This document shows, one piece after another, positions 10,666-39,321 of a DNA stretch of 64,000 nucleotides (its first letter is position 1; each line of letters begins with the position of its first letter). A program made the translations under genes and the position numbers. The stretch is from an uncultured Agrobacterium sp. (lineage in GTDB: Bacteria; Pseudomonadota; Alphaproteobacteria; Rhizobiales; Rhizobiaceae). The stretch is from the NCBI GenBank assembly GCA_913777615.1, contig CAJYTK010000013.1:248001-312000 (forward strand). Reading direction: 5' to 3'. Under the pieces are notes generated by a model. The model saw only the letters and a list, made by a program, of their open reading frames with translations. It did not search any database and was not told the origin of the DNA.

Positions 10666-10705
10666 GCGCATGAGTGCCCTTCGCAAGGATATCGCGATGG
10701 CACTC
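10666..10705 (+). promoter_or_regulatory. Phage leader element 1: 12-base motif plus hairpin over RBS/start
   Basis: GCGCATGAGTGC at 10666-10677 ends 19 nt before the ATG at 10697. GAGTGCC (10672-10678) can pair with GGCACTC (10699-10705), a 7-bp stem whose loop holds AAGGA (10685-10689) and most of the start codon. A possible -10-like TATCTA lies about 20 nt upstream of the motif, which would put the motif in the mRNA leader. Confidence 0.5.
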
Positions 10706-11011
10706 CCTTCTGTTCACATCATTTGCGGCTTTGCAGGCGGCGACGGCAATCAGCCGACGTCGAAGCAAGCGCTTCTGCGGCTTCCTCAGTGGTCGGAGGA
10801 GCCCGCCGCCGGCGTGCCAACGACGAACGGCGCAGCAGATAACGGCGGTATGAAACCGATCCTCCGCATCACCAACACCGTCGATATCTTCCTGAGCGTT
10901 GGTAAGGTGCCGAATGCAGGAGCGAGCCCCCGTTTCGCTCTCCGCGCCTCTGACGCGCCGCACGACATTTACGTCGAGCCGGGCGATAAGGCTGCTTGGG
11001 TGGCCGCATAA
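10697..11011 (+). CDS. Small phage structural protein (beta-rich, upstream of tail hydrolase)
   Basis: A 104-residue protein. ATG 10697 is chosen over the upstream in-frame codon at 10670 because AAGGA sits eight bases before it. The second half (ILRITNTVDIFLSVG...APHDIYVEPGDKAAWVAA) resembles small beta-sandwich head or tail decoration proteins that precede phage tail hydrolase genes. It ends in TAATG, sharing bases with the start of the SGNH gene, so the two are translationally coupled. Confidence 0.65.
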   Translation: MALPSVHIICGFAGGDGNQPTSKQALLRLPQWSEEPAAGVPTTNGAADNGGMKPILRITNTVDIFLSVGKVPNAGASPRFALRASDAPHDIYVEPGDKAAWVAA

Positions 11012-12693
11012 TGGTGGGGCTGCGCCGGTCTCTTCGTGCGAGCGTTTCAATGCCTATGGCTGTCAACTCGCTCGCTGTGGGCAGGTCTGGTGGGGCGGTG
11101 ACACCGGTCGATCCCGATCGCTATATGTTCTTCGCCTCGCGCAATCGAATGCCTTCCGGCCCGCTCTACACGACGGTGGCAAACAACAACTATCTTGCGA
11201 CGAAAATCAAAGTCGGATGCCCGGAGTATAAGACCAGAACTTTCCGCTTCCACTTTCCAGGGTTCGCTTCGACAGAGGGCGGAAACTCGCCACAGGAAAC
11301 CATTGTTACCGGCACTGTAGGGACACCCGGCAATTCCGTCATCATTGATGAGTTCCTAATACGGTATAAAGAGCAATTCTATCCAGCTACCTTTAATGGT
11401 GGCAGTGCTGGCGCGATCATTGCCGACCAGACGAACGGCATTTGGACGGACCCGCTCACCATTCCGGGCGACGTGGATGCAGAAGCAGATCTTGAACTGT
11501 GGACGCTCTACCATGTTGCCACGGTAGGGGACAAAGTTTGGCCGGTCTATCGTGTCCAATATCATCGCGGTGAACGCGTCTGGGGCGGCGCAAGCCTCGC
11601 TGAAATCCAAGCCTTCAAAGCCACTCCTGACGCCGCGAGTACGATAGCTTTGACGAGTTCAGCGGGAGGCAGTGGATATGGGCAACAGTCGCAGTATCAG
11701 CACTACGGACCCGATTTCATGGTTGCCAAAGGTGATTGGGATGGGCGGCCTGTTGTTGTCGTTCTCACTGACAGTATTGGTGAGGCTCGCCAGGAATACG
11801 GGCCAAACGCCGATGCGCGCGGGAATATCGGCTGGCTTCGCAAGTGGCTGGACAAGAAGGGCGGAATCGGTCGCATACCTCATCTGGTGATAGGCATGCC
11901 GGGCGCCGCGGCTGTACGTGAACTTACAGGTAGCGGCTCGACAATCGCAACCCGCCGATGGGACATTCTCGACCAGATCACATCTTTCAATAGCGGAAAG
12001 AAACCATTTACCGCCGTCCTGAACCAGCTTGGCCAAAACGACACTACCACGCCTTATTCTACGTGGTGGAGCCGAATGACCGGCCTCGCCAGCCGTGTTC
12101 GCTCCCGTTACGCGGGCGTTCGTCTTGTCCATCTGGTGCCGCTTGGACGTGGGGCAAATAGCCAGGAATACAAAGATGTGGGCTCTATGGCCTATGCGAC
12201 CAACAACGTTTGGCCTGCCGACACGACCGATTCGACGGGCAAATGGCGACTTCGAGATGATCTCATAGCTTTGAAAGATGGCGTGGCGGATGCCTGCATA
12301 GACACATTGTCAGCGTGGCAGGGTGCCGCGGGCGTGGCGAAGCACCCGACCTACGATGAATTGCCATGGTCAACGCTGAGTGAAGCGGCAGGGTTTGACG
12401 GGACGGCAACTTATCAGACGTTCAAGGTGATTGACGGATCGCTGTATCAGCCCGAGCAACAGTTGCGCGTCTATTCCGCCGACGGCGCAACATTGGTGGG
12501 TGCTGGTGGCACCATCGCATCGATTGCAGGAAATACAATCACGCTTCAGGCCGCCATTTCGCTCGTCTGCCCTGTTGGCGCACGCCTCTACCAGATCCCG
12601 GTGAACTATGGCGACGGGCTACACCCGATGCCAGTGCTGGTCAAGCAGATGTCTGAGAGGCTATCTCAGGACAATAAATCAAAACTTTTCTAG
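11011..12693 (+). CDS. SGNH/GDSL hydrolase-domain tail protein (possible receptor-modifying enzyme)
   Basis: A 560-residue protein. The N-terminal 230 residues are beta-rich and probably attach to the virion. The SGNH hydrolase follows: nucleophile in LTDSIGE (Ser255), oxyanion residues in LGQND (Asn343), and the catalytic Asp-His in DGLHP (Asp535, His538). Such enzymes deacetylate or de-esterify surface polysaccharide, which suits a tail fibre or spike of a phage of an exopolysaccharide-rich host. An inserted beta-stranded stretch near residues 450-525 precedes the last motif. ATG 11011 is used because it overlaps the previous stop. Confidence 0.75.
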   Translation: MVGLRRSLRASVSMPMAVNSLAVGRSGGAVTPVDPDRYMFFASRNRMPSGPLYTTVANNNYLATKIKVGCPEYKTRTFRFHFPGFASTEGGNSPQETIVTGTVGTPGNSVIIDEFLIRYKEQFYPATFNGGSAGAIIADQTNGIWTDPLTIPGDVDAEADLELWTLYHVATVGDKVWPVYRVQYHRGERVWGGASLAEIQAFKATPDAASTIALTSSAGGSGYGQQSQYQHYGPDFMVAKGDWDGRPVVVVLTDSIGEARQEYGPNADARGNIGWLRKWLDKKGGIGRIPHLVIGMPGAAAVRELTGSGSTIATRRWDILDQITSFNSGKKPFTAVLNQLGQNDTTTPYSTWWSRMTGLASRVRSRYAGVRLVHLVPLGRGANSQEYKDVGSMAYATNNVWPADTTDSTGKWRLRDDLIALKDGVADACIDTLSAWQGAAGVAKHPTYDELPWSTLSEAAGFDGTATYQTFKVIDGSLYQPEQQLRVYSADGATLVGAGGTIASIAGNTITLQAAISLVCPVGARLYQIPVNYGDGLHPMPVLVKQMSERLSQDNKSKLF

Positions 12694-12806
12694 GTGACGG
12701 CAAAGTAATTTTAGGGCAGACGTCATCGTGTGCCAGATACTTTATTTAGCATTTACTGGTGTTGATGCATGATTCCGGCTCATATCAGAACCGAGATGGG
12801 TTAGAA

Positions 12807-13658: not shown

Positions 13659-13765
13659 AGCTTTGAAAATGTGCAGTTGGGTCTTTCGGTTGATTTCTGA
13701 CTTCCTTCCACTCTAGCAGCTTTCAATCCCTACTGCTCCCAATTATAAACGATATCTTACCGTCC

Positions 13766-13803
13766 GCGCATGAGTGCGGCTTCTCGATAGGAGCCCACGC
13801 ATG
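13766..13803 (+). promoter_or_regulatory. Phage leader element 2: 12-base motif plus hairpin over RBS/start of the giant gene
   Basis: GCGCATGAGTGC at 13766-13777 ends 23 nt before ATG 13801. GGCTTCT (13778-13784) pairs with AGGAGCC (13789-13795) around a CGAT tetraloop, fully burying the Shine-Dalgarno AGGAG. The stem can extend outward with one mismatch and one bulge until CATG of the motif pairs with CATG of the start codon. Confidence 0.55.
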
Positions 13804-16800
13804 CCAATCGTTATCGGACTCGGCGATGATGCCGAGTGGAAAGACCCGCTCAACCTTTTCGGTGGCGATGCACCAGGTCTAGCTCCATCATCCGATAGTG
13901 CAACAGCACCAAACCAGCATCAGAATATGCGTGCTGTTATGCCTGAAGGCATGTCGGAACGCGACTGGAACGACACCGTCAATACTGTCATTGCCGAGGC
14001 AGCCGGCGAGGGCGACGAAGGCATGGCCGGCGTGGCTCATGTCATCCAGAACCGCTCAAAGATCCGCGGCCAGTCGATCGGTGATGTCGTCAGAGATCCA
14101 GACCAGTTCACCGGATATTCCAAGCCGGGTCCGAAAGCGCAGGAAGCAATGCGCGACCCGCAAGTGCGTGCGAGGGCAGAGAATATTCTCCGATCTGTCA
14201 TGGCTGGAGAGGGTGTCGACCCTACCGGTGGCGCGGATCATTATCACGCCGACTATGTGAACCCGTCTTGGGCTAAATCCATGGCCGAGACTAAACGGAT
14301 CGGCAGCCACCTCTTCTACAATTCGAAGGCAGGCGACAAGGCGCCCAACGCTGAGACAGCCTTCGTGTCAGAAAACGACGGGCTGGGCTTGTTGGGCCCG
14401 AAAGGCCAGTTCGGCGACCTGCTGAAAGGTGAAGAAAAGTCCGACGTTCCCAATCCAAGCGGAAAGGGACTGGCGAGGCTCGTCAGGGAGCCGGAAGAAA
14501 AAGAGAACAGCGGCGGCGGCAAGCTTAATTTTGTGCATCCCGGCCAAGAGAAGATTGCACCACAATTCGCTGCGATCCTCACCGAGACGTCGAAAGCGAT
14601 GGGGCGCGATTTCACGATCAACTCCGGATATCGGTCTCCGACGCATAGTGTCGAGGCGGCAAAGCCAGGCGGCCCGGGCGAGCATGCAGACGGAACGGCG
14701 TCCGACATCTCCATGAAGGGAATGAGCGAGGGTGAACGGGCCAAGCTGGTGCGCGAGCTGTATTCTCGCGGTGCCCGACGCTTCATCACCTACAAGAACA
14801 GTCCAGACATGCTCCACGTCGACATGAAGGATCAGACGGGCAAGGGCACGCCGTGGTTCATGTTCGACAAGTCGGCGCGCAATATGCCGAACGCGCCGGA
14901 GTGGTTTAAGGAAGTAGCCGCCGATCCCGGTGGAGCGTCACGCGAAGCGCTCGCTTTCGCCCAGGGAGATAATCCGGATGGCCCTGAGCTTCGCCCCTTT
15001 AAACCCGGCGAAAGCAGACCAAACGCAGGCGGCTCTTACTCAACAGAAATCAGCACAACGTGGCAGCTTCCGGACGGGAAGTGGGTCAACGTGCCTTCGT
15101 TGTGGATGAGCAAGAGCGGCCCACAGCAATTCGCACCGGATGACGAAGAAGGCATTCTTGGCGCTATGCAGAAATACGAAGCCGTTAGCGGAACAACATT
15201 TCCCCGGTTCCCCAGCGAGTCCGCCGCAGTAGCTGCGGCGAAAGCTAGAAGCGAAGCGGGTGGAGCAGCTGCTCAGCGTGGCATAGTCGTGGACGACACC
15301 TACGCACCAAGCGACGGACTTGGGCTATATGCAGGTTCCACCAATCCCTTCGAAGCGGAAGCCAAGGCTACAGCGCAAGCACGTGCCGATGCAACGGCAG
15401 CTGAAGCGCAACGCGTCGAGCGAGCGCGCATTGAGGCTGAAACGTCAGCCCACAATCAGGACGTCGAGAGGCGACTGACCGATGGCAAAGGGCGCTACGC
15501 TGTCATCAACGAAAGCGAGCTAGCGGATTGGCAGAAGCAGTGGGACGAAAAGTTCCGCTCTTCGGGCATCGCTGGCGACCTGGTGCGCCGGTTCGGTATG
15601 GGCGCGGGCAGCACCTCACAGTCCATCAGCAACCTCAACCGGCTCATTGTGTCGAAACTGCCTGGCGGCGACAGGATCAACGAAGCGCTGGACGGCATTG
15701 ACCGCTGGTGGGCGGGCAAGACGCAAAACGAACAGGCGCAAGAGAGCATCGACCGCATGTCCGGCAGCCTCTCACCAGAGGGTGAGGCGGCTCGAGAGAA
15801 GAAATGGTGGAACGAAGATACCAAGACGCTCGGACCGGCATGGAAGGACCCGCGCAGCTATCTCGGTACCATTGCCGAAAGCGCACCAGCCACTATCGCG
15901 ACCATGGCGCCTTCCGGCATTCTCGCTCGAGGCGCGTTCCTCACAGCCAGAGCGACCGGCGCTACGCTGGAAGTTGCGTCAGCTACCGCTGCCAAAACGG
16001 CGACGATCGCGGGCGGCATTTCAGAAGGCCTGTTGGGCGGCGCTGATGCTGCCCTGTCGGTCAAGCAGCGCATCGCTGAAATCCCGCGCGAGCAGCTGCT
16101 CGCTTCCGATGCTGTGAAGCAGCTCGTCGCTGGCGGCATGTCGGAAGACGCTGCGATTAAAGCGATCAGCGAAGACGCTCAGACACAGGCGCTTTTAACC
16201 GCTGGAGTGATCACAGGCGCATTCGGCGGCATGGGCGATCGCGCGCTCGCCAAAATTATCGCGGAAGGCGTAGAAGGCGGGGTTGCCCGCCGTATCGGCG
16301 TCGGCGCTGCCAAGGGGATGGTTGGCGAAGGCATCTTCGAAGAAGCACCGCAGAGCGCCGGCCAGACCATCGCCGAAAACGCTGCGGTGGCACGAGTGAA
16401 GCCTGATCAGGACCTGACGGAAGGTTTGGGCGAATCCGTGGCGAGCGGCGTTGCAGCCGGTGGCGCAATGGGCGGCGGCATGGGGGCAGTTGGTGGCGTC
16501 GCTCGTCCGGCCGCACACAACACAGGCCCATCCCCGGAAGCTGGGCAGGCAGCACCGGAACCAACAGCGCCAGTCGAGCCAGATGACCGCGGACCTCTTC
16601 GTCGAGCAGCTGATCACGGCCAGCAGCGCCAGGCAGACCGCGGGGCAGCCGCGAATGCTGGTGTCCCGATCGATGGCCGTCCCGGCGTCAAATCCACCGT
16701 GCGCGTCGAAGCTGAAGGCGTTGATCCTTTCATGGGTACCGTCGAAGGTTACGAGGGGGACGAGGCCGTCGTGGTCGATAGCGGAAGCGGCGAAGTCTAT

Positions 16801-19800
16801 CAGGTGCCGTTGGCGAACCTGACCGAGATTGCCCCTCCGGTCGCTGACTACCAGTATCCGGAAAAGTCCCAAGACGGTATGCCCGAGCATTCGGCAGACC
16901 CGGCGCTGGAGCCATTACCGCCCATGTCGGCGGAGGTGACGTCAGAAATGCCGCCACGGTCCGAAGATATCCCCGCGACTGAAAAGCGACCCACAAGGCC
17001 GCAGCCAGGCCAGCGCGTCATTGTTGTTGATCCGGCAGCAGGCCGCTTCTCTGCCCGAATTGAGCGATATGAGAACGGCGGTTCCGAGGCAGTCGTCGTC
17101 AATGGTGAGGGCAAAGCCTATCAGGTGCCCCTCGAGTCAATGAAGGTCAACGGCCTGACGCCGGCGCAAGTCGAACAACAGGACCTCGAGCGTGATCCGC
17201 CTATCGAGCGCGAGATCGGCGATGCAGGCCCGAATAGCCGAAAGATCGGCGACAAGACCGTTTTGCTCCCTGACGAGAAGCACGCCGCGCTCTACGACCT
17301 TGCCCGCGAACAGATCATAGCCAAAAAGCTTGGTGGCACCTCCCAGATCGATATGGACAGCGTCTTGCCGCAAGAGCGTAAGCGGCTCGCTGATGAGTTT
17401 CGCATCAAGGTGTCGGATCTGGCTACCTTGGCCGATGACTATCGGTACCGCGCAGAGCGAGCCGCTAAACAGGCGAAATCCAAGCTTCCGGTCAACATGC
17501 ATGCTGTGAACGATCGCTTGCTGAAACAGCGTCAGTCAGCACTGGCGAAAGAGGCCGGTGAGACACCTGCACAGACCGCCGATGATGGCGCGACCTGGTG
17601 GGACGTCGATCTGACCTCACAGGATCGCAAGTCCATTCTTGAACAAGCGGGCGTCAAGCGCTCTGAGCGGCTGACATGGGCGGGTATGACGCCGGGCATC
17701 CGGAAGAAGCTGACCGACGTGCGGGACGCGCAGCGCGCCGCGGCGGAAGATGTCGCGACGCTGGCCGGGCAGCAGACCTTCAGAACAGCCAAGGGCAGTG
17801 AGTACAAAGTATACAGCGATGGCACCACGACCCGCAACAAGGCTCTGCGCGACCAACCGGGCCATGAAGGTGATAGCGGCATTAAGCCCCGCACGGCGAA
17901 AACCGTTTATGTGGACACGAACGCTTCCAGCCTGAGCGCTGCTGGACTGTCTCTTGCCAGCCCAGAGAAGGGTGCTCGCGTCGCGATCAAAGACGGAAAG
18001 GCCACGCTGGTCACGTGGAACAGCAAAGAAAACGGTTGGGGCGCATCACCCGAAGGGCGCGACATCACGATCCACGACACACCCGCGGTGGGCAGATATC
18101 CACTCGAGCTTTGGAACCCTGTTGACGATGTTCCAGGGTACGCGGCTTACAGCCGGATGCATGCAGGCAATGAGATTGTCGAAGTAGGTGGCAGCGCGGA
18201 CACTGCGGCAAATGAGGCAGCCACCTCACCGACGAACGATCGACCAGAGCCAACTCAAGCTCAAAAGGAAGCCGGGAACTATAAGGTTGGTCGTCTGAAG
18301 CTCGGCGGACTCGATATCTCGATCGAGAACCCCGCAGGGTCCAAACGCAAGGGCGTTTCATCGTCTGGCAAAGCGTGGTCCGTCGATATGAAGAGCCATT
18401 ACGGCTACATCCGCGGTACCGTAGGGCGCGATAAGGATCACATCGACATATTCGTCCGTCCTGGCACCGAAACGCTGGACGATTCCTCGCCGATCTTTGT
18501 CGTCGACCAGAAAGACCCCGCGCGCGGTCGGTTCGACGAGCACAAGGTGATGGCTGGCTTTGACAACGAAGCGCAGGCACGTGCCGCATACCTCGAAAAC
18601 TACACGGCTGACTGGAAGGGGCTGGGCGACATCACCCAGACCACGCTTGGCGATTTCAAAACGTGGCTCAAGTCCGGCAAGACATCAGAACCCTTCGCGC
18701 CGAAGTGGTTTGCATCGCAGGAGAAGGCCGACGGTTACGTCGCCAAGAACAAGATCGCCGATACCCACGAGGTCGTTCAGAGAGGCAAGCGCTTCGAGGT
18801 CCTCGAGCGAGAGCGAACGACACCTGCGATCCGCAGCGGGAAAGGTACGGAGCTTGATCCAAGCGCGCATCCTTGGTCTGACGTGTGGGGTAGCGACGCC
18901 GATGCCGTCTCGGACGCGCTGAGCCGGATCGCCAGCACCAATGGCGGTGACACGCCAATCTCCGACGCGGTGAAAGCCAAGGTCGGCGACAAGGACCTGT
19001 TACAGCTCATAGAGCAGCGCTGGGGCGAGGGCGGCGCAGGCGGCAATCGCTACATGATCGAAACCCGGAAGGGGCCGATCGTCACCATCACGCTTGAAAA
19101 GGACAATGGAAATCAGCGCGTCGTTCTGCGCGGGAAAGACCTCGCTGACGCGATCCGGAAGGAATTTGCAGTCTCGCTTGAGGATATGAGGCGGGATGCA
19201 GCCGCTCGAGATGCCGTGGCTGCTTCGCGACCGCAGGACAATGCTACGAAGTCTGTATCCACAACACCAGAGGTAAAGCCTGCCAAGCCTGCTCCGATCG
19301 TCTCTGAGAACAAGCTTTTCACAGAAGATGCGGCGACGAAGGCCCGCGAGCTGCTGCGCAGAAAGCTGTCTGGGAACACACTGAACAGCGGTATCGACCC
19401 GGAACTGCTGCAAGCAGGTATCACTCTTGCCGGCTACCACATCGAGAAGGGCGCACGCACATTCGCCGCATATGCTTCGGCTATGCTGGCGGACCTTGGT
19501 GAAGGTGCGCGCCCTTACCTCAAATCGTGGTATATGGGGGTGAAATATGATCCTCGCGCAGCGACCTTTGAAGGCATTTCCAGCGCCGCCGAAGTCGAGT
19601 CCGCCGACGTTAACAGCTTCACCGGAGCCATCAATGAACCTGAACAACTGGATCGAGCTGGGGCGCCAGCACTGGAAGGAGTTTCTTCCAAAGCGGTACC
19701 GAGAGCTGAAAGCGGCCGGGACGCTGGACGAAGCGCTGAAGGCAGCCGCGGAGCAGACTTATCAAGAAGCGGACCAGCTCGAGCAGAGCGGGTTCAAGCC

Positions 19801-22800
19801 GGACGAGGCGTGGCAGATGGTGAGGGAGAATTACCTGTTGCTACCACCAGAAGGAAGCCAGCAGACCGAGCGGCAGAGCCAGACGTCGCAGGATCTGATG
19901 AGCGCGGCTCGCAGCGGACAGAGAACCGTCGAGATCAGGTAGAAGAAGGACCATTCGGGCCGATCCTTCGCGGTTACGAGGGCAAATGGCGCGAGGCTGC
20001 GGTCGAACTGGAAAAACGTCAAAGCGGCGACGCGATTGGAGCTCTGTCACATAGAGAGGTCGGCCCCATCGATCTGGTGTGGGGCAAGGCGGGGAACAAT
20101 CAGCACGACGGCTCTGGCTTGGCGAAATTGATCGCTTGGCATCCGGAAGTTCTGGCCGATTTGCAGGGCTTTATCGATGGCCTTCATGTCGATCCGGCTT
20201 CGAGAACAGAGCGCCGCATCCAGCTTGTGAGCGACAATGGCCGGGCGGGCATACGGCTAGACTATGACGGTAACGCCAAGACGTGGCTTCTGACGGCATA
20301 TGATACAAACGTGCTCAGACGAGCAAACGCAAGCTCTCAAAGCCTAAGTGAAATCTGGGAAGGCCAGTCGTCGGGTGAAAGTGCTGGTAAAAGCGCCACG
20401 TCAGACACCGCTTCTACAGACCCGTCGGATGCCATCGCTAGCCGACAGACCAGCACCAAAGACAACATAGCATCGAAGCCCTCCGATGTCCAATCCGCGG
20501 GGGCGGTGCCAGCGCAGCAGCGCCCGTCGGACTATGTCATCACCGATGGCGATGCATTGGGCGAGGGCGGACAGAAGGCAAAATTCCGATCGAACGTCGC
20601 CGCCATTGAGTTGGTCAAGCAGCTCGACGAGCAGAAGAGGCCGGCAACCCGCGATGAGCAATCTGTTCTCGCGAAGTGGGTAGGATGGGGCGGCTTGCGG
20701 GCTGCCTTCCCTCGTGAAGATGGCAGCGTCGCCAAGGGCTGGGAAAAGCAAGCGGCGGAGCTGAAGTCGCTGCTGACGAAGGAAGAATACAGCGCCGCCG
20801 AGTCATCGACGAGGAACGCGCACTACACGTCGCCTGAAATTGTCGGTGCAGCGTGGTCGATTGTGCAGCGCCTCGGCTTTAAGGGAGGCCAGGTGCTTGA
20901 GCCGTCCGTTGGGGCCGGAAACTTCCTCGGCCTGATGCCGGGCGAAGTGCGCGGCACCTCTCACGTCACCGGCGTGGAGCTGGACCGTATCACGGGCAGT
21001 ATCGCCAAGAACCTTTATCCATCGGCGAACATTCAGGCCCCAATTGGCTTTGAGAAGCTGAGCGTCCCCGATTCCTACTTTGATCTGGCGATCGGTAATC
21101 CGCCCTTCGGTTCCGAAAAGCTCTACGACAAAGAGCGAACGCATCTCAACAAGCTGTCGATCCATAATTTCTTCTTTGCCAAGGCGATCGAGACTTTGCG
21201 ACCAGGTGGCATCCTTGCGATGGTCGTTACGAACCGGTTCCTGGACGGCCAGTCGGCGGCAGCGCGCAACCTGATCCAGTCCAAGGCGGATTTCATCGGA
21301 GCTATCCGTCTTCCGAATGACGCGTTCTTGAAGAACGCCGGTACCGAAGTCACGACGGACATCGTCATTCTACAGCGCCGGGAAGCCGGCGCAGCCCCGA
21401 AGGGCAGCGATTGGCTCGAAGTCGTCGACTATCGGGGCAGAGACGGCAACGTCGTCCCTCTCAACAAGTATTTCGTCGAAAATCCCGACATGATGCTGGG
21501 CGAGTTCGGCGGCTACGGCTCTATGTACGGTCCCAACGAGCCCGCCTTGATCGCTCGAGGCGGTCAGAACACCGCGGCGGAGTTAGCGAAGGCTGTTGAG
21601 AAGCTTCCCCAGGACATCATGGGCGATACTGTGCCCATGAGGGTGACAGAAACAGTTACCGTGCCGGAAACTGTCAACGACGTGCAGGTTGGTACGATGT
21701 TCTCCGCCCCAGACGGGTCGATTCATCTCCGCACCCCTGATCACATCGGCCAGCCCACATCCAAGGCAGTCGATTTCGCCAACGAGACGGCAAAAGAGCG
21801 CGTCGCTGGAATGGTCCGAGTGAGGGATGCTTTCGCCAAGCTGAGACGCGCTCAGATCAGTGATACCGCATCGGATCAGCAGATTGATAACCTGCGAAAA
21901 AGGTTGAATACCTTCTACGATGCCTTTGTAAACAAACACGGACCTATCAACAGCGACGCAAACAAGCGTCTATTCCGAGACGATCCAACGTGGCCCCAGA
22001 TCAGCGCTCTTGAGCAATCCTTCGACAAGGGTTTGAGCGCGGCACTTGCCAAAAAAACAGGAGAAAAGCCCCGCGCACCTACTGCGACGAAGGCGGCGAT
22101 CTTCACGCGGCGGACGCAGCAGCCCTATAAGCGGCCAACCAGCGCAAGCAGCGCGAAAGATGCGCTTGCGACGGTTCTCAATGACTATGGTCGGGTCAAC
22201 CTCGCGGCCATGTCGGACCTATATGGCAAGTCGCAAGAAGCCATCGTTGAAGAGTTGGGATCTCTGATCTTCAAGACGCCTTTGGGCGCCTATGAGACGG
22301 CAGATCAATATCTTTCGGGCAATGTGAAGCAAAAGCTTGCAGAGGCCGAACGCGCCGCCGAGCAGGATCCGGAATACCGCCGCAATGTGAATGCGCTGCG
22401 CGACGTGATCCCAGCCGACATCGAGGCGATCGACATCGATGTGAAGCCAGGCGCTCCATGGTTGCCAGCGAACCATGTCGAAGACTTCATTGCTCACATC
22501 GCTCAGGGGGCGGTAAAGCCGCGCGCCTATTATTCCGTTGCGAATGCAAAGTGGGACCTCACGGTCTCGCAAGTCACGCCGGCGGCGCAGACACTTTGGG
22601 GGACTGACAGAGCCGGCGTGGGGACCGTCCTGAGTGCTGTGATGAACGGTCAGACCATCACGATCTCCGACAGAACGTCAGACGGCAAGACCATCATTAA
22701 TCAGCCTGCAACCGATGCAGCAAATGAAAAGGTGGAACGCGTAAAGGCCGAATGGCGTAAGTGGCTCTGGCAGGATGACAAACGCCGCGATGATTTGGCG

Positions 22801-25800
22801 CGGCTCTACAACGACACGTTCAATACCGATGTCATCCAGCAATTCGATGGGGCACACCTTACCTTGCCGGGCAAGGTCGGCGACGACATCATTGAGCTTC
22901 GCCCAAGCCAAAAGAATTTCATCTGGCGCACTTTGCAGAGCGGTACCGCCCTTGCCGATCACACCGTGGGAGCAGGGAAGACATTCGCGGCGATCGCCTC
23001 GGTCATGGAGAAGCGCCGAACCGGCCAAGCCCGCAAACCAATGATGGTGGTACCGAACCATCTTGTCGGGCAGTGGGCAGCCGACTTCGTGCGCCTTTAT
23101 CCAGGCGCTAAGGTGCTGGCAGCCACAAAGCAGGATTTTGAGAAGGAACGGCGGAAACGTCTTTTCGCTCGCATAGCCACCGGCGATTGGGACGCGGTCA
23201 TTGTCGCTCACTCCTCATTCGGCAGAATCGGCGTTGATCCGAATTATGAGGCGAAGTTCATCCAGCAGCAGATGGATGATCTGGAAGCCTCGATGGCGGA
23301 GGTGCGGCGCGAGACAGGGCAGAAGAGCCGAAACGTCGCGCAGCTCACCAAGTGGCGCGACAACCTGAAAGCCAAGATGGAGCGACTGCTCGATTCCGGT
23401 CGCAAGGATGACGGTCTCACCTTCGACGAGCTTGGCGTTGACGCTCTGTACGTCGACGAGGCGCACGAGTTCAAGAACCTCGCCTATTCGACATCGATGC
23501 AGCGCGTGGCTGGCCTCGGCAACATGGCTGGATCCTCGAAGGCTGCTGACCTCTACATGAAGTCCCGGTTCATCCTTGAAAAGACCGGTGGCAACAACCT
23601 TGTGTTCCTCACCGGCACTCCGCTGTCGAACACAATGGCCGAAATGTACACCGTCCAGCGCTATCTGGATGAAAAAGCGTTGCGGGCGATGGGCGTTGCC
23701 CATTTCGATGCGTGGGCTCGCGTCTTTGGCGAAGTCGTCACTGATTGGGAACTGTCGCCGTCCGGTCAGTATAAGCTCAACAGCCGCTTCTCCAAGTTCG
23801 TAAACGTTCCTGAGCTGATGCAGCGGTACCGCAGCTTCGCCGACGTCATCACCAACGACGACATCAAGGCGCAGCTTGCCGCACAGGGCAAGAAGTTCCC
23901 TCTGCCAAAGGTCAAGGGCGGAAAGCCTACCAACATCGTAGTGGAGCGCTCCCCGGATCAGGCAGCTTACATCGGCGTGGGGAAGGCCGATGATGCAGGC
24001 AACTTGGTGTTCCCGAATGGGTCTCTTGTCTGGCGGGCAGAGAACCTGCCGAAGAAGGCCGAGAAGGGCAAAGACAACATGCTGAAAGTCATGTCGGACG
24101 CCCGCAAGGCGGCGCTGGATATGCGTCTGATCGACCCAAGCTATCCGGACCACCCAAAGTCGAAGATCCATCGCGCCGCAAACGAGATGGCGCGGATCTA
24201 CAAGTCGTCAAAAGAAGATCGCGGTACCCAGCTGGTTTTTATCGACCTCTCGACGCCCAAGAAGGCACAGGCCGCAGAAGCTGCACGTCTTCGCGACCTC
24301 ATGGAGAAGGCAGACAATGGCGACGAGGCGGCCATCGAGGCGCTCGACAAGATTTCTCCCGACGAGCTGCTCGCGCTCGAGAGCACGTTCTCCGTCTATG
24401 ATGACCTGAAGCAAAAGCTCATCGATCGCGGCATACCGGAAAGCGAGATCGCCTTCATCCACGATGCCAACACTGAAGCGCAGAAGGAGGAATTGTTCGG
24501 AAAGGTCCGTTCAGGCCGCGTCCGCTTCCTCTTCGGCTCTACCGCGAAGATGGGCGCCGGTACCAACGTTCAGAACCGCCTCGTCGCGCTGCATCACCTT
24601 GATGCGCCGTGGCGTCCTTCCGACCTCGAACAGCGTGACGGGCGAGGGATACGCCAGGGCAATGAGCTATATGCTGCCGATCCGGAAGGTTTCGAGATCG
24701 AAATCCTCCGCTACGCCACGAAGAACACGCTTGATGCTCGCCAGTGGCAGACCATCGAGGCCAAGGCGCGGTTTATCCAGCAGGTGCGCAAGGGTGACAT
24801 GAAAACCCGCGAAATCGAGGACATAGCAGGCGAAGCCGCCAACGCCGCTGAAATGAAAGCAGCCGCTTCCGGCAATCCTCTCATCCTCGAGGAGATGGAC
24901 ACGCGCCGGAAGCTGAGACAACTTGAGGGCCAGTCTATCGAGCACGATCGTGAGCAGCATCGCGTGAAGGGCAAGATCAAGTCGCTCGAAGATGAAGCGG
25001 ACCGGTTGCAGCGTGGTCTCTCAAAGGTCGAAGCCGATGCCGATTTGGCGCGGAAGGTTCCCGAGGAGTTCGCCGGTACCGTCGGGGGTGAAACGTTCGA
25101 AAAGCGCAAAGACTTTGGCGCGGCCATCGTCGCGGCGATGCGAAAAGAGCTGATCGACAAGGAAGGCGTTCGCGAGATCGGCGAATACGCCGGTTTCAAG
25201 GTCGGCATTGATCCTCTGGGATTTGGCAGAGCGTTCAACGTAACGCTCGAGGGTGCGCGGGAATACACTGTTCCAGTCGACGACGCTTCCGACGTCGATG
25301 CTGCTGGTCTCGCCCAGCGCATCATGAATACCGTGAAGCGCCTCGCAAACCAGCCAGCGATCGACAAAGAGCGCATCAGCGAGGCAAAAGCGCAGGTCCC
25401 CGCCCTGCAAAAGCAGATCGGCGCGTGGGAAGGCGCTCAGGAGCTTGCCGATACCGCCGCTCGCCATCGCCGGATTTTGGACGCGCTGAAGCCTCAGCCC
25501 AAGAGTGCCGAGACGTCGGTCAAGGTGGACGCTGGTGATGTGGACGCGCCGATCGCGAACAAGCGTCCTGATCCTGTCGTCATAGCCATCGCCAATGATC
25601 TGCAAACCGTTGGCATACCGGCTGCGCCCAATAGCACGGCCATCTTCCAGTGGGCGAAGAACACAATCGCTCGTTTCGGAAAGTCTGGGCACGAATACCT
25701 TATGGCCGTGGATGACGATGGAAGCGTGGTCGAGTTTGGTACCGCCAAGAAGAAGGCAGCGACCGGTATCAACAACAAGCTCTATGGCGCGCTCCTCAAT

Positions 25801-28800
25801 CCTGATCGTCGTCTGGTCGTGTTCCACAATCACCCGAGCAACGGCCCGCTGAGTGTCGCGGATATTTCAATGATGGGCTTGCCCGGGTTGCACTCTGTTT
25901 GGGCCTTCGGTGCAAACGGCATGCAGATGCGCGCCGTTCTCACCCCGGAATCGGAAGCCGTCATGCGTGCCGCAGCTGATCCCAATCAGACTGTAAAGGA
26001 GTGGCGCGAAATATTGTCTTCAGCGCTCGAGCAGGTCGATGCGTTCTTACGCCCTCTCGTCACTGGTGGTTCGATCGAGGTTGAGGCTGGTAATACGGCC
26101 TACACCAACGCGGCGGCAATCTTGGCCCAGAAGTCCGGGCTTATCGACATTTCCTCAAATGTAAATTATGATACTTCCGCCATCGAGGGCTTGAATGCCA
26201 AGCTCGATAAATTGGCGGTCGCTCTGAAGGAACAGATCAGCGATGGCACAGCAGGCAGCACCGATAAGGGGATTTCACGACGACCCGCCCGCGACGTTCG
26301 ACACGTTGCAGAGGTGGAGGGATTGGCACGCATCGGTGAGCCAGTGGCCGGCACGCGATCCGGACCGGCAGGCTTATCTGAAACAGGCGCGCCAGATTAT
26401 CAGAGAAAAGAGCGCCGAGCAGACCGACAGCCAGGACGTGTCGAACGCGTAACCCAATCGCGCATCGTCGAGGAGCTGCGCGGTAAGCTGACCGATTTGC
26501 AGCCTGCGCTCCTGAAAACCATCCCCCTCAACTATTTCTCAGAACTTGCCCGATCGAACATGACGGCGGTTGGCGACTATCTGCGCGTCAAGCGCTTGAT
26601 GGATGCCTTCAGGGGGACGAAGCATGCCGAGGCCGATTCCGTGGCACAGGATTGGTTGAAATACACCCGTCTTGGGTTCGCCGGCAAAGACAAGGCCAAG
26701 GCGCAGGAACTTGCCGACCTGATGCATGACGCTACCCTCGCGGGTGTCGACCCAGCCGCTACGGACGACGAGACCAAAGCGCTCCCCGGCTATGACCATC
26801 TGCGCAAACGTTTCATGGCGCTGCCGCCAAAGGGGCGGGAACTGTATGTGAAGGTCAGGGACGCGTATCGGGAGCAGTCGCAGGAGCTTGACGAGATACT
26901 GCTCGACAACGTCCGCAAGGCACAGCAGATCGCTGAGAAGAACGCCGAGGATCGTTACAAGCTCACGATGCAGAAGATCAAGGACGCTGGACTGACCGGC
27001 ATTGATCGCAAGAACGCCGAGGAAGATGCCACCAGCGCCTACAAGGCGGAGACGACGAAATCCCGATGGGCAGCGAAAGCCCGCCTGACCCGGATGCGCA
27101 TTGCGTTCGAATCGAGCCGCGTGCAGCCTCCATATTTTCCTCTTGGCCGTTTCGGTCGGTATTTCGCGACCGTGCGGGACATCGATGGAAGGGTGCTGAG
27201 CTTCTCAAAGCACGAGACCGTCGCTGAACGCGATCGGATGGCGCGAGAGCTGCGAGCTGAATATCCGGCCGGAAAAGTCGAAGTCGGTGTGATGGAGGCC
27301 AGCGGCGACATCCGCAAGGCTATGGACCCGCGCATCGTGGCGGAGATCGAGGAGATATTGGGTGGTGCCAATATCGGCGGAGACGTGATGGATCAGATAT
27401 GGCAGCGATACCTCGAGTCGATGCCAGATCTGTCTACCCGCAAGCGCTTCATCCACCGTAAGGGCACTGCGGGTTACAGCAAGGATGCGCTGCGCGTCTT
27501 CTCCTCGCACATGTTCCACGCCGCCCACCAGATGGCGCGCCTCAAATACGGCCTCGAGCTTCAGGAGCTGGTGAATAACGCCGTTGACCAGGCGAAAGAG
27601 AGCGACGACCAAACCCGCGCCATGACGCTGGCGAATGAACTTTCCAGCCGCCACAAGTGGGTCATGAACCCTACTGGAAGCAAGGTTGCCCAGACGATGA
27701 CGAGCACCGCGTTTGTCTGGTACCTCGCGGCTTCGCCCGGTGCCGCTCTGGTCAACATGACCCAAACCGTCATGCTTGGTCTGCCTATTCTGGCTGCCAA
27801 ATTCGGAGGGTTCAAAGGGGCGGCAGTAGCACTCAGTAAGGCTTCCGCCGATTCTGTAGCTGGCAAAGGCAGTGTGGTGAGCGATCGCCTGACGCCTGAT
27901 GAACGTCGGGCGATGGATGCGTTCTACGAATCCGGACTGATCGACAGAACGCAAAGCCATGATCTCGCCGGCGTCGGTGAGACGGGTGTCGAGTACACGC
28001 CTCTCCGGGCAAAGGTGATGGAGAAGATTTCGTGGGCCTTCCACCGCGCCGAAGTCTGGAACCGTGAGGTGACTGCACTAGCAGCCTACCGCATGGCTCG
28101 CTCTGCCGGTCAGAACATGTCCGACGCGATTGATACGGCCCATGACCTGACATGGAAAACGCACTTCGACTATTCCAACAGCTCGAGGCCAGCACTGTTG
28201 CAGAACGACTTTGCAAAGGTCGCTCTCGTCTTCCGCCAGCACAACATCAACATGCTTTATCGCGTGGCGCGAGATATCCACCAGTCGGTAAAGGGCGAGA
28301 CTGCGCAAGCTCGGCGTGAGGCGCGGTACCAGCTCGCCGGCGTGATGGGCATGATGGCGGCTATGGCTGGCGTGACAGGAACAATGGGCTTCAGCGTTGC
28401 GATGATGATCGCGGGGGCAATCTTCGGTGACGACGACGACCCGATGGCGTTTGAGGATCAGTTTAAGGCCGACGTTGTCGATATCCTTGGGCCGCAGTTG
28501 GGCGGCGTTCTTCTGAACGGTGTGCCAGGGCATTATCTCGGAATCGACCTCTCCTCACGCATCGGCATGCCGGATCTGTGGTTCCGCTCGCCGACAAGGG
28601 AGCTTCAGGGGAAAGACGAGTACCAATACTGGCTGTCGCAGAGCCTCGGCGCAACGGTAAGCTTGGGTGAGCAGCTTTACACCGGCTTCAAGGTCATGAC
28701 GGATGATGGCGACGTTGCCCGCGGCATTGAGATGATGGCGCCGAAGGCGGTTCGCGACCTGATGAAGGCCTATCGCTACTCGCAGGACGGCGTTGCGACG

Positions 28801-29269: not shown

Positions 29270-30580
29270 TTACGGGTTCAGACCGATCGCCGTCTGACGG
29301 CTGCGCAGCTGCTCTTGGACTGCTTTCGGCCACTGCCATTCAGGGATACCCTTTTCCTGAAGTGCTCGAGCGACGTCGAGAACCGGAGCCCCATTTTGTA
29401 CCGTGGCCTCTGCCTCTGCCACGATCGCACCGACGTCGGGGGCCTCCTGCGCCGGAGCCTGTGATGCTCGGCTCATCATCTCGTCGACGCGCTTGCCATA
29501 GCTTTCTTGAGCCCGTGCTGGCACTCCCGGTATAGGGGCTTTTTTGGGCGAAGACGCCTGCGCGTCATCGTCCTTCGACTTTCTCTCTGTCGGCGCTTTT
29601 GCTTTCTGCTGTGGAACAGGCTTTCCCGTGATCGTGTCGACGAGCACTTTGCGTTCCGTCGGAGCAGCGCCGACTCCAGCCAAGCCCACCTGACCATCGC
29701 CACGCTGCAAAGCGAGCTCTTGTTCGATGAGCTTTTCCTTTTCTTCAACCGGCATGTCGTCGAACTTCTTGTCGGTGCCGCCCAGCCCGCCGTCAAACCT
29801 CTTTCGTAGAGACGTGATAGCATTGGTTCGCTGCTTAGTATCACCGACGCCATACTGCCTGTCGATCTTCTTCTTTTCTTCGTATGTGCGCAGATTGGCG
29901 GCTTCTTTGTCTGCCACAGCGCGTGCGGCAATTTGACTGTTCCAGGCAGCCTCCGGGTTGCCGAACGTCGCAATGAGTTTAGGGAGGTCGGAGGTCTGGA
30001 TGTCCTGTGTAACCTCCTTCCCATCCGGGGTGCGCAACTGGATGCGGAAGCCCCGATTAGCGCCCTCTGGGGTGACGATCGGCTCTTGGCCCAAGACCTC
30101 GTAGCCGTTGTTGATATACCCTTTGACCTGTCCCGCCTTGATAACGTCGGCCAAGGCCCCGGCACCATCACCTGTCTGAGCTTTGACCAGAGCCCCGGCG
30201 AACAATCTAGCGCCATTCTTCGCGTCTTCCGTCTCTCCCCATTCCTGCACCCGCCTGGCGTTATCAAGATCGCCATTTGCGAGATAGGTGTTCTTCATCT
30301 TGGGCAGAGCGAACTTGTTCCAGAACTGGTCGAAATCGCCGGGCTGCTGAGTGCCAGCGTTCACCTGTGCGTCGAACGTCGTTTTGGCATCGGCGTTGAT
30401 TTTGTCGATCTCGTTGCGCTGTGCGATTACGCGATTGTATTCGACGTCTTGGCGGTCCGCCAAAACCTTGGCGCGCTCGTCCGCAACCTTTTTTCGCTCC
30501 TCGTTTTCCCAACCCTGCCGGATCTGTTGACCCTTGGCAAACCCGTCCATGAATCCGCCCAAACCGATTGCCAAGCTCAT
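29270..30580 (-). CDS. Putative internal virion / DNA-ejection protein
   Basis: A 436-residue protein, last gene of the capsid-tail operon. The N-terminus has a Gly-rich hydrophobic patch (AIGLGGFMDGFAKGQQ) followed by long charged helices, a beta domain near residues 160-215, and a disordered Lys/Pro/Ala-rich C-terminal third. This composition and position resemble internal proteins ejected by short-tailed phages, although no catalytic motif is visible. Its start overlaps the upstream gene by four bases. The specific role is inferred. Confidence 0.6.
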   Translation of the reverse strand: MSLAIGLGGFMDGFAKGQQIRQGWENEERKKVADERAKVLADRQDVEYNRVIAQRNEIDKINADAKTTFDAQVNAGTQQPGDFDQFWNKFALPKMKNTYLANGDLDNARRVQEWGETEDAKNGARLFAGALVKAQTGDGAGALADVIKAGQVKGYINNGYEVLGQEPIVTPEGANRGFRIQLRTPDGKEVTQDIQTSDLPKLIATFGNPEAAWNSQIAARAVADKEAANLRTYEEKKKIDRQYGVGDTKQRTNAITSLRKRFDGGLGGTDKKFDDMPVEEKEKLIEQELALQRGDGQVGLAGVGAAPTERKVLVDTITGKPVPQQKAKAPTERKSKDDDAQASSPKKAPIPGVPARAQESYGKRVDEMMSRASQAPAQEAPDVGAIVAEAEATVQNGAPVLDVARALQEKGIPEWQWPKAVQEQLRSRQTAIGLNP

Positions 30581-31740
30581 GCTGCGATGTCCTTCTGATT
30601 TTTAACCTTTGGTGCCGACCGCTTGCGGGTAGGGGGTTCAGAGCTGCCGAGGCCTATCGCTTCGATGACAGCGTCCAGCTTGTTGTCGACGTCCTGGACG
30701 GCCTTCATGGTAATGCCGATCGCATCCTGAGCGGCGATGTTCTGACCGTCACCAAGCCCGGTCTGCTCAGTGAAGTCTTGGGCATACGTCCCAATGTGGC
30801 GACCTTCATCGGCGACGCCCTCTTTGTAATCCCATGCCTCGACGGGCATCGCCTTCAGCGCCTCGAGGGCTTCGCCGTCCTCGATGGGCTCTTTGTTCTC
30901 TTTTGCGTTTTCGTCGGATTTGAACAGAAGTCCGCCGATACCGCCCAAAAAGCTGCCGATGCCTTGCGCCCCTGCAGCATTCATTTGCTGCTGCGTCTTC
31001 CAAGCGTCCAGCTGTAAGCCGTATTGCTGGTTAAGCGTGCTTGCTTGGCCAGCGTAGCCCTGCATCGCTCCGCTGAAACCAGAGTTCATAATGGTGGACG
31101 CGGCCAGCGATTGACCGTTGGTAGCTTGATTGCCAGACAGCGCGGTGCCACTTGCCGCCACGCTGCCGCCTGCGCCCGCGGCGGCTTGCGCTGGCAAGCC
31201 CTTACCGAGGTTGACGACGTCAGCCTTCAGAGCGAGCGCCTTATCCCTCACGGCCTGCCTGGCTGTGTTGGCGGCACCAGCTTCCGCAAGTGACACCCCG
31301 AGGTCAGAGGCGGCCTGCACACCCGCAAATCGACCGCTGCCGGGTGTGACGCCCATAGAGGCATTGGCGCGTTCTGTGGCGGCGCGATTGTTGGCCGCGG
31401 CGGTCTGCACGTCGGCCCGAGCCTCTGCTGCGGCTTCCGCCTGCTTCGCCTCGGAGCCGTAATTTTTTGCCTCGTTGATGAACTCGTCTTCGATAGGCCG
31501 ATAGACGCTCTCGTACCGGGCGCGGTCTGCCTTCGACCACTTAGCTTGGTCCGTCGCCAGACCAAGCTGCTGCTCTGTAACTTTCGTGGTGAGCGCGTCC
31601 AGCTCTTTCTGGCGCTCCTGCGAAACAGCGAACGCATCCTTCGCAAAGCCAAGCCATGCTTCGCCTGTTTTCGCCTGCATAAGTGCGGCTGCGCCGATCT
31701 GTGGATCTGGTGCGGGTGCTGAATTGCTGCTTTTGCCCAT
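30577..31740 (-). CDS. Phage tail/internal protein with C-terminal S74-type (intramolecular chaperone) domain
   Basis: A 387-residue protein. The first 270 residues are Ala/Gln/Gly-rich helix with a Gly-rich patch (GIGSFLGGIGGLLF). From there the sequence follows the peptidase-S74 pattern: SDENAKENKEPI, AMPVEAWDYKEG, RHIGTYAQDF and a final helix AIGITMKAVQDVDNKL. In that family the Ser of SD and a nearby Lys allow self-cleavage after trimer assembly; here Ser-Asp and Lys (in AKENK) are both present. It begins a subunit of the operon with its own leader element (31738-31776). Confidence 0.65.
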   Translation of the reverse strand: MGKSSNSAPAPDPQIGAAALMQAKTGEAWLGFAKDAFAVSQERQKELDALTTKVTEQQLGLATDQAKWSKADRARYESVYRPIEDEFINEAKNYGSEAKQAEAAAEARADVQTAAANNRAATERANASMGVTPGSGRFAGVQAASDLGVSLAEAGAANTARQAVRDKALALKADVVNLGKGLPAQAAAGAGGSVAASGTALSGNQATNGQSLAASTIMNSGFSGAMQGYAGQASTLNQQYGLQLDAWKTQQQMNAAGAQGIGSFLGGIGGLLFKSDENAKENKEPIEDGEALEALKAMPVEAWDYKEGVADEGRHIGTYAQDFTEQTGLGDGQNIAAQDAIGITMKAVQDVDNKLDAVIEAIGLGSSEPPTRKRSAPKVKNQKDIAA

Positions 31741-31776
31741 AATGCTGCCTTCTGAAGAGGGTCAGCGCTCATGCGC
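31738..31776 (-). promoter_or_regulatory. Phage leader element 5: 12-base motif plus hairpin over RBS
   Basis: On the minus strand GCGCATGAGCGC (31776-31765) ends 24 nt before ATG 31740. GCTG-CCT (bulged) pairs with AGG-CAGC, seven pairs that bury the AAGG ribosome site. This copy is a one-base variant and has the weakest stem of the five. A TATATAGAT stretch lies directly upstream and could be a -10 region. Confidence 0.45.
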
Positions 31777-37513: not shown

Positions 37514-37536
37514 TCGTTAATGCGCCGTGACGGCTG

Positions 37537-37998: not shown

Positions 37999-38048
37999 TT
38001 CGAGAATCCTTCAGGTGGAAGGGTCGATAAGACCGATGGAAAGATGAA

Positions 38049-38068: not shown

Positions 38069-38073
38069 AGCCG

Positions 38074-39171
38074 TTAAGCGTTAGGGTCTTTTGCAGCGGT
38101 ATCGACCGAGATCACGCCATAGTCGCGGTTGTTGAATCGGGTCTTTTTGATGCCAGCAATGACGCCCGATGCGACGACCGGCTCATTGCCGTGGTCCTTC
38201 GTCTCTTCGGTCCATGTGTAGCGGAAGCCGCCAGCAGAACCGAACGCGATCACGCCCGCCTGACGTCCCATGAAGAGCGCGCGGCCAGCCTGAACATTCT
38301 GTGCAGCGCCGTAATCCTTGAAGCGGATCGCCCACTCGTGGCTGTGCAACACGGTGTTGTTGACCATGCCGAGCCCGCCCTTGAAGATCGCGTTGCTGCG
38401 GCCTTCCGCCGTCGCTGCTGCCTTCTGGATTTCGAGCCAGCCACCTGCATCGTTCGTGCGCAGGTCATGTTCCTGGAACGGGTTCATGACCATGACGTAG
38501 TGCGCTTCGCCATTGATCATGATCGGCATCATGTTGGCGTTCTTCGGGTCCTTGGCCGACATCATGCGGGCCTTGACCTGTGCGCGCTCGATCAGCGATC
38601 GGGACATGATGTCCGACGCATCGATCGAGGCCTTGGAGGTGGCGTCGCCACCGTACAGGATGTGGTCGGCGTCGGGGGCTTCGATCGGGTTTTCCGCGTG
38701 ACCGGTCCACTCGACGGTTTCGATAAAGTCTTCGTTCGTGCCGCGAGAGCCAGACAGGTAGATGAAGGTCATCTGGTCGTTGAACTTCGACCAATAGTCA
38801 GAAAGGCGGTTTTTGCCGATCTGGCGCATGTTGTGGGCGGTGCGCTTGCGGGACATTTTGCCGCCAGCAGAAACGCCGTGGCGCATCTGGTCAATCTTCA
38901 GCTGGTCGCTGAAGAACCGTAAGCTCTCTTCCTTGCCTTCCAGGCGGTTGTCGCCGTAGGTCGGTTTGTTGCGGAGCTGGACGGACAGGTCGAAGGTAAT
39001 GGTATCGCCGGCTTCCGATTCGAGATCGGTAAGACGCTGGATCGCGTATTCGTCAGACGTGCCGACGAACTTGCGGTCGAAGTAGCTTTTCTTGGTGATG
39101 TCAATGAAAAGCCCACCAGACCACTTTTTCTGGGCTTTCGGATCGCCAAAGGCAACCACGGTCTTGGTCAT
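38074..39171 (-). CDS. N4-gp56-type major capsid protein (DUF4043-like)
   Basis: A 365-residue protein from ATG 39171 (GGAG eight bases upstream; the longer frame from 39204 would run into the leader element). Family features: early KKWSGGLFIDITKKSYFDRKF, LESEAGDTITFDLSVQLRNKPTYGDNRLEGKEE, an RKRTAHNMR loop region and a C-terminal RYTWTEETKDHGNEP strand. It forms the icosahedral head. First gene of the 39171-29270 operon and directly under leader element 4. Confidence 0.85.
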   Translation of the reverse strand: MTKTVVAFGDPKAQKKWSGGLFIDITKKSYFDRKFVGTSDEYAIQRLTDLESEAGDTITFDLSVQLRNKPTYGDNRLEGKEESLRFFSDQLKIDQMRHGVSAGGKMSRKRTAHNMRQIGKNRLSDYWSKFNDQMTFIYLSGSRGTNEDFIETVEWTGHAENPIEAPDADHILYGGDATSKASIDASDIMSRSLIERAQVKARMMSAKDPKNANMMPIMINGEAHYVMVMNPFQEHDLRTNDAGGWLEIQKAAATAEGRSNAIFKGGLGMVNNTVLHSHEWAIRFKDYGAAQNVQAGRALFMGRQAGVIAFGSAGGFRYTWTEETKDHGNEPVVASGVIAGIKKTRFNNRDYGVISVDTAAKDPNA

Positions 39172-39212
39172 GAGTGATGTCTCCGGTTCAGGAACAAACA
39201 GCACTCATGCGC
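39169..39212 (-). promoter_or_regulatory. Phage leader element 4: 12-base motif plus hairpin over RBS/start of capsid gene
   Basis: On the minus strand GCGCATGAGTGC (39212-39201) ends 29 nt before ATG 39171. CATGAGTG of the motif pairs with CACTCATG, which contains the start codon: an 8-bp perfect stem whose loop holds the GGAG ribosome site. It faces leader element 3 at 39284; both may be served by divergent promoters in 39213-39283. Confidence 0.55.
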
Positions 39213-39283
39213 ATTGATACTCTGATTACTGGAAATGCTGGATTGTTGCAACACGTAACGCGTGATACTGGAGGAGATCGCTA

Positions 39284-39321
39284 GCGCATGAGTGCGGCCT
39301 CTTCTTCGGAGCGCACTCATG
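39284..39321 (+). promoter_or_regulatory. Phage leader element 3: 12-base motif plus hairpin over RBS/start of endolysin
   Basis: GCGCATGAGTGC (39284-39295) ends 23 nt before ATG 39319. CATGAGTGCG pairs perfectly with CGCACTCATG (10 bp, 39287-39296 with 39312-39321), taking in the whole start codon, and the GGAG ribosome site lies in the loop or an inner CTC/GAG stem. This is the clearest of the five copies. Confidence 0.6.

Follow-up and report, generated by a model that had tools for sequence, protein, structure and literature searches.

Why should one 12-base element stand ahead of five separate gene units of a single prophage, and what could read it? We addressed this question in a stretch of 64,000 nucleotides (nt) from an uncultured Agrobacterium sp. 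(contig CAJYTK010000013.1, positions 248,001 to 312,000), called here the window, whose own numbering is used below. An earlier, sequence-only reading had described the element as part of leaders that mask the Shine-Dalgarno sequence (SD) and the start codon at the heads of prophage operons. We found that the 12-mer is itself a local hairpin, GCGC-A(N)GA(N)-GYGC, which we named H1. H1 and the masking stem exclude each other wherever both can be drawn, as they use a common strand. The sequence-only reading missed both this main structure and a trans-acting candidate, a csrA-like gene carried by the prophage. Taking the evidence together, we think it probable that the phage CsrA binds H1 on nascent leaders and thereby activates the translation of late genes.

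A hairpin heads five gene units of the prophage

Five exact copies of GCGCATGAGYGC were found where they had been claimed, at 10666-10677 (+), 13766-13777 (+), 31765-31776 (-), 39201-39212 (-) and 39284-39295 (+). They are separated from the ATG by 19, 23, 24, 29 and 23 nt, respectively, in agreement with the announced 19-29 nt, and no exact copy lies alongside either of the cargo genes at 9957 and 12807. The corresponding hairpins are GGCGC-ATGA-GTGCC (10665..10678, +) before the unit of a small protein and an SGNH gene (ATG 10697), CCGCGC-ATGA-GTGCGG (13764..13779, +) before a giant gene (ATG 13801), GCGC-ATGA-GCGC (31765..31776, -) before an S74 gene (ATG 31740), and GCGC-ATGA-GTGC before both the capsid operon (39201..39212, -; ATG 39171) and the endolysin operon (39284..39295, +; ATG 39319). 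In its general form H1 has a stem of 4-7 base pairs (bp), a loop A-N-G-A or A-N-G-A-N, a C-G closing pair and, usually, G.U as the second pair.

The sequence-only reading would have been contradicted by a similar density of the motif in the host genome. In the 4.55-Mb assembly (91.85% complete) the exact core GCGCATGAGTGC occurs four times and is confined to the prophage; GCGCATGAGCGC occurs 15 times, the prophage holding one copy, and among 8 of the 14 host copies that were inspected one precedes a possible start (GTG of an 84-codon frame). With two mismatches allowed, the motif was not enriched in the window (34 observed vs 32.3 expected), so that the signal consists of the exact core and its position. 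The 12-base consensus with two mismatches was dropped as a definition for this reason and the hairpin was used instead. A wider core, GCGCANGA(N)GYGC, has exactly five matches in 83 kb (left flank and window), all of them at the five leaders.

H1 is conserved in related phages

H1 precedes the capsid gene at 73 of 77 related viral loci (47 unique leaders with it and 4 without). It was scored there as a stem of at least 4 bp closed by an ANGA, ANGAN or ANGGAN loop, which 60 of 15,400 mononucleotide-shuffled capsid leaders also contained. At these loci, therefore, a short hairpin stands close to the ribosome site of the gene it would control, as in canonical CsrA/Rsm targets. The endolysin, S74, giant and small/SGNH genes of relatives are also headed by H1. 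From 147 candidate leaders, 100 were kept in five gene groups defined by N-terminal patterns and the 47 outside these groups were excluded, leaving 73 unique hairpins; one leader (L142), which belongs to a small-protein gene (protein MPLVGLHVVVGF), was filed under giant, the true counts being 10 giant and 6 small.

The search had fixed pairs 1-4 and the loop type (pair 2 with C or U only), so that pairs 5-7 alone are free tests of covariation. Pair 5 forms in 47 of the 73 unique hairpins (30.4 in shuffles) and pair 6 in 49 (37.7 in shuffles), values reached in neither case by any of 2000 shuffles, and pair 7 gave no signal (28/73 vs 25.6), in a procedure that ignores kinship among the sequences. 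The second pair is G.U in 66 and G-C in 7 of these hairpins. Hairpins with the H1 loop type stand at gene heads in 80 of 534 cases, compared to 20/507, 41/551, 21/331, 18/351 and 38/543 for five control loop types, and the core hairpin ends 18-48 nt upstream of the start. The GCGC half of the motif had been regarded as dispensable for pairing, and its conservation as a hint of a role at the DNA level. This idea was not supported: GCGC is the 5' arm of H1, which pairs with GYGC, the outer pairs covary, and its conservation thus needs no DNA role. Rfam covariance models run on positions 9000-43000 of the window listed no match at the five leaders, a tRNA being the only hit to reach the gathering score.

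The loops vary among relatives. GGA-type loops (AGGA, AGGAC, AUGGAU and AUGGAC) are present; AUGGAU and AUGGAC, seen in L186, L187, L189 and L073, are canonical CsrA sites and possibly represent the ancestral state of the operator. On the minus strand of L173, tandem hairpins with ANGA-type loops (12519 and 12561), one with a 13-bp stem, precede a single gene. The ATG in the H1 loop at window position 10670 is in frame with the small gene, whose longest open reading frame (ORF) consequently starts inside the hairpin; in the other leaders the loop ATG opens short frames. Leader peptides starting at this ATG were rejected as a general feature, since many relatives have AGGA or AAGAC loops without it.

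The start-masking fold competes with H1

The masking fold pairs the motif with the start region. In the endolysin leader, the claimed ten-pair helix is exact: the start-side strand CGCACTCATG (39312..39321, +) pairs with 39287-39296. In the capsid leader, ACTCATG (39169..39175, -) pairs with CATGAGT of H1, and in many related capsid leaders the mask strand comprises loop position 3, the 3' arm and the following tract, paired with the SD/start region. Masks were evaluated with RNAduplex against dinucleotide shuffles in 98 leaders. For the window, the capsid mask (0/300 shuffles) and the endolysin mask (p 0.023) stood out from chance, and the three remaining leaders, taken individually, did not. 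Over the whole set, p was at most 0.05 in 46 of 98 leaders and at most 0.01 in 28; by group as filed, the former threshold was reached by 27/47 capsid, 8/19 endolysin, 7/16 S74, 3/11 giant (one of the three being the misfiled L142) and 1/5 small leaders. A masking stem that includes the SD or the start codon is therefore supported for capsid leaders, and more weakly for the other groups.

Covariation in relatives, proposed as a check of the masking fold, was found at the capsid gene. Among 44 capsid leaders the observed arm-to-start match sum was 204, compared to 165.7 after permutation (0/2000 reached the observed value), and at least five Watson-Crick pairs formed in 23 of the 44 leaders vs a permuted mean of 9.7. 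Arm swapping lowers the match, which indicates that the capsid mask and the motif change together. The check failed in the endolysin, S74 and giant groups. These results bear on the additional suggestion that the element is a DNA site for a late transcription regulator. The arms do read as an imperfect inverted repeat, and this repeat may be close to where transcription begins, but the orientation is tied to the gene (the 80/534 hairpins at gene heads compare to 20/507 with the loop on the opposite strand), the start-side partner of the capsid leaders covaries, and the distance to the start is not constant (18 to 48 nt). We regard such a site as extremely improbable.

In equilibrium folding at 30 °C, the probability of H1 was about 0. 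The start codon was 0.00 unpaired in the default predicted fold of the capsid, endolysin, giant and S74 leaders of the window and 0.34 unpaired in the small-protein leader, where the mask is partial. Enforcing H1 raised these predicted values to 0.72-0.84 in the first four leaders and to 0.45 in the last. Over the 98 leaders, predicted start-codon openness increased by more than 0.1 in 77 and decreased in 14.

The prophage encodes a divergent CsrA-family protein

A gene of 62 codons (9714..9902, +), located 3' of the portal gene and of a further virion-gene homologue, encodes the proposed trans-acting regulator. It accounts for the single Pfam CsrA match of the assembly (window 9714-9827, 15.3 bits), and its product matches PHROG 8397 (CsrA-like regulator) with E=0.0021. 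A profile built from 21 phage relatives matched RsmE (2jpp) with E=4.7e-12 and E. coli CsrA with E=1.6e-8, and the nine PDB sequences found at E of at most 0.00015 all belong to the CsrA family. Foldseek searches with an AlphaFold2 monomer model of the window protein placed CsrA-family chains at ranks 1-14 (best E 0.08). Judged by profile homology, the protein is a divergent member of the CsrA family. One phage relative weakly matches the flagellar regulator FlbT (NCBIfam E=0.0044), which is another mRNA-leader-binding protein. No H1 core was found at the csrA unit itself in the core search of the left flank and window.

The place of the gene is common to phage JC1 (portal, virion protein, csrA, capsid), where it is annotated as a carbon storage regulator, and the equivalent place in Atu_ph08 holds a 64-residue hypothetical protein. 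Among 49 capsid-related records, 38 have a Pfam CsrA match at E of at most 10, 13 of them above the cut-off, and 44 match the phage CsrA profile at E of at most 0.01, a profile (A1, also used in the hairpin scan below) that contains members from some of the searched records. The other five are G145 and G146, with weaker matches (L079 0.0012; G146 0.25), and G104, G107 and G134, fragments of 32-39 kb in which the profile search gave no CsrA-like match. The G146 ORF was accepted as csrA-like since L079 (0.0012), L081 (6.2e-7) and L082 (8.9e-5) have orthologues. In a scan of 24 record sets (22 capsid-related sets, JC1 and Atu_ph08), with E-values from a profile built iteratively on its own matches, 23 contained a csrA-like ORF, the 24th being the weak G146.

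H1 and csrA occur together across phages

In the reverse direction, all viral contigs were scanned for GCYGCGCANGAGTGCRGC, which gave 62 stretches, and for a control with a changed loop, which gave 35. The hairpin lay 10-54 nt before an SD and the ATG or GTG of a frame of at least 80 codons in 42 of the 62 H1 stretches and in none of the controls. A CsrA-like gene was present in 38 of the 62 H1 records (29/50 and 9/12) and in 1 of the 35 controls (Fisher p 1.8e-9, a value that overstates independence because Pseudomonas phages almost identical to one another make up much of the 62). Some of the records are short fragments. The single csrA-positive control record has a true H1 shortly downstream, followed by GCACTCATG. 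Pseudomonas phage F116 carries two 7-bp H1s (30 starts checked), one inside the 3' end of csrA, immediately ahead of the following gene, and the other ahead of gp53. In several F116-like records (F116 being L191), gp47, close to the capsid genes, is accompanied by another CsrA-like frame about 17 kb away on the opposite strand. E. coli phages Bas95 and PTXU04 also have a CsrA-like gene. No H1-core hairpin was found at 32 starts of Bas95 (L190); a canonical-type hairpin, UGGC-AAGGAC-GCCA, with a 4-bp stem, lies there 18 nt before 18906 (-), at a gene adjoining the csrA-like gene.

This co-occurrence has to be set against a switch that needs no protein, in which a transient H1 would delay masking so that only fresh late mRNA is translated. 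Such a kinetic device would draw on the facts that H1 is transcribed first and that the mask out-competes it in the predicted equilibrium fold. It would not account for an A-N-G-A-type loop that is kept at 73 of 77 capsid leaders and favoured at gene heads over five control loops, nor for H1 tracking csrA across phages, and appears very improbable.

A proposed translational switch

H1 is similar to a CsrA/RsmE site, though most of its loops have one G fewer. Features common to H1 and the CsrA consensus, CANGGANGU, are the C-G closing pair, a loop of the form A-N-G-(G)-A-(N) and, following the closing G, a U. We propose that, without a partner, the 3' arm of H1 and the following tract would pair with the SD/start region, closing the gene to translation. 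The divergent CsrA of the phage itself, made from the H1-less unit 3' of the portal gene, would, if expressed in time and specific for ANGA loops, capture H1 as it emerges from the polymerase. The hairpin so held would block the masking stem and free the late start codons, and the capsid, S74, giant, small and lysis genes would then be translated together.

Several results weigh against this proposal. In 13 leaders compared, the predicted energy favours the masked fold over H1 by 6-15 kcal/mol, and the switch would therefore need to operate while the mRNA is being transcribed. Predicted effects on the SD were mixed, enforced H1 opening it in 39 of 98 leaders and closing it in 19; in the window endolysin leader the SD goes from 0.22 to 0.06 unpaired, though the start opens. 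Enforced H1 also lowered predicted start openness from 0.86 to 0.14 in the JC1 capsid leader (L129) and from 0.77 to 0.33 in that of PEp14 (L144). The masks of the giant, S74 and small leaders of the window did not differ from shuffles (0.21, 0.43 and 0.99, respectively; in the small leader the pairing partner sits just within the gene, so that no mask appears up to 6 nt past the start), and the arm-to-start permutation test gave nothing within the endolysin, S74 and giant groups. The loops of the window leaders are AUGA and lack the GGA of a canonical CsrA/Rsm target. The window protein scores under the Pfam PF02599 cut-off (15.3 vs 27 bits), its AlphaFold2 model is modest (predicted local distance difference test score 77.6, predicted template modelling score 0.51) and Foldseek returned no PDB match for it at E of at most 0.001. 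The near-identity of many H1 records has been mentioned above. JC1 shows a convincing H1 at the capsid start only (23 starts checked), and it is thus the rhizobial group that best shows a regulon of several operons. Folding results for JC1, PEp14 and the endolysin SD slightly lowered our confidence in this proposal and in its extension to other phages given below.

CsrA is known above all for repression, exerted from sites close to the SD or overlapping it. The phage protein could accordingly bridge H1 and a GGA in the SD and repress late genes early in infection. Downstream of H1 and ahead of the start, a GGA is indeed present in 37 of the 47 capsid leaders and in 35 of 35 endolysin, giant and small leaders, and the decrease of start openness in the JC1 and PEp14 capsid leaders goes in the same direction; repression over or near the SD is also described in the available part of PMC3933668. 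But GGA is absent downstream of H1 in 14 of the 16 S74 leaders, which disfavours SD bridging, and the 3' end of the core hairpin, 18-48 nt from the start, is off the SD. In addition, the window H1 loops lack GGA, so that a protein adapted to them would not have to recognise SDs, and a held H1, which excludes the masking stem, should unmask the start where a mask is present. Classical repression therefore seems unlikely to us.

The bound hairpin could also shield the 5' ends of late mRNAs from decay, with no effect on start access. According to the accessible text of PMC3933668, flhDC mRNA is stabilised by CsrA at the very 5' end. Close relatives have in common, in their capsid leaders, a block noted by eye, TTGCAA - 17 nt - TATTTA/TAATTA, which would put the transcript start just before H1. 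However, a sigma-70 promoter scan gave no site at the five window heads, and protection would leave the covarying start-side mask of the capsid leaders unexplained; we judge it improbable.

Activation by CsrA thus remains our preferred reading of the window. Its extension to the PBC5/Atu_ph08-, Bcep22-, PEp14- and F116-like podophages would make the captured CsrA a dedicated activator of late-gene translation, whose operator drifted from ANGGAN to ANGA(N) and so avoided cross-reaction with SDs and host Csr targets. On this wider proposal we are divided, leaning slightly towards doubt.

Genomic context

Most of a prophage belonging to the PBC5/Atu_ph08/Bcep22-like podophage group lies in the window. 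Its capsid protein shares 89.9% identity with the one from Agrobacterium phage Atu_ph08 and 86.6% with the one from Sinorhizobium phage PBC5. An integrase gene and a tRNA-Ser gene lie on the right. A weak 15-bp exact match (E=0.016) between the 3' end of tRNA-Ser (42548-42562) and the left flank (L097 1389-1403) suggests candidate att sites and a prophage of about 60 kb. The H1-led units are headed by the small protein gene (10697..11011, +), upstream of the esterase-like (SGNH) gene, by the giant ORF (13801..29205, +), whose counterpart at the equivalent place in Atu_ph08 is annotated as a Snf2 family helicase, by the S74 virion protein gene (30577..31740, -), by the major capsid gene (38074..39171, -; PHROG 334, Pfam PF13252) and by the endolysin gene (39319..40254, +). 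The interval between the divergent capsid and endolysin leaders (39213-39283) contains a GTTGCAAC palindrome; this palindrome or the TTGCAA block is possibly a shared late promoter or operator.

Comparison with known systems

Phage csrA, so far a moron or a gene without a role in the literature consulted, gains here concrete candidate targets within the phage. If the proposal is true, a late regulon (capsid, virion proteins, giant protein and lysis) would be timed by translation through one small RNA-binding protein, and the late-gene switch would be translational, not transcriptional. The operator loops also offer a natural series for studying how CsrA specificity changes.

Bcep22-like phages (Lessievirus JC1 gp47 and others) have csrA in the equivalent place, after the portal and virion protein genes and, in JC1, with the capsid gene next. 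In the accessible portions of the published descriptions, the JC1 gene is called a moron whose benefit is unknown, one of its peptides having been detected in virions (PMC9144972), and the DC1 gene a possible biofilm regulator (PMC8310193), and these portions mention no operator hairpins or phage targets for either. An extract of a further report names Bcep22, DC1, PEp14 and Parlo among the phages with csrA, asks for loss-of-function tests and states that S. meliloti lacks a chromosomal csrA (PMC7366521). Our literature search, based on partial texts, returned no report of phage targets of a phage CsrA, and an earlier mention in the Bcep22 genome paper is possible.

Among RNA-binding regulators, RsmE binds A(N)GGAX loops according to the available part of PMC4005645. 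The likeness to the CsrA/RsmA/RsmE systems lies in the form of stem and loop and in the profile match of the phage family to RsmE and CsrA. The differences are that most loops have one G fewer (AUGA, AUGAC, AAGAC), that the phage protein is divergent, and that the hairpin leads the phage's own late genes, with activation as the likely direction. Com of phage Mu, as presented in the accessible text of PMC6483171, is a small phage RNA-binding protein that activates mom translation, its binding reportedly melting a structure in which the start codon is held; unlike the protein considered here, it is a zinc-finger protein acting on one gene and does not belong to the CsrA family. The phzA2 leader of Pseudomonas aeruginosa offers a further parallel, since the part of PMC3933668 available to us proposes that RsmA, a CsrA-family protein, opens a stem at phz2 and so frees the SD trapped in it. 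That case concerns one host gene cluster and a GGA site, whereas the prophage has copies of one hairpin ahead of several late operons, where a common strand sets it in competition with the mask.

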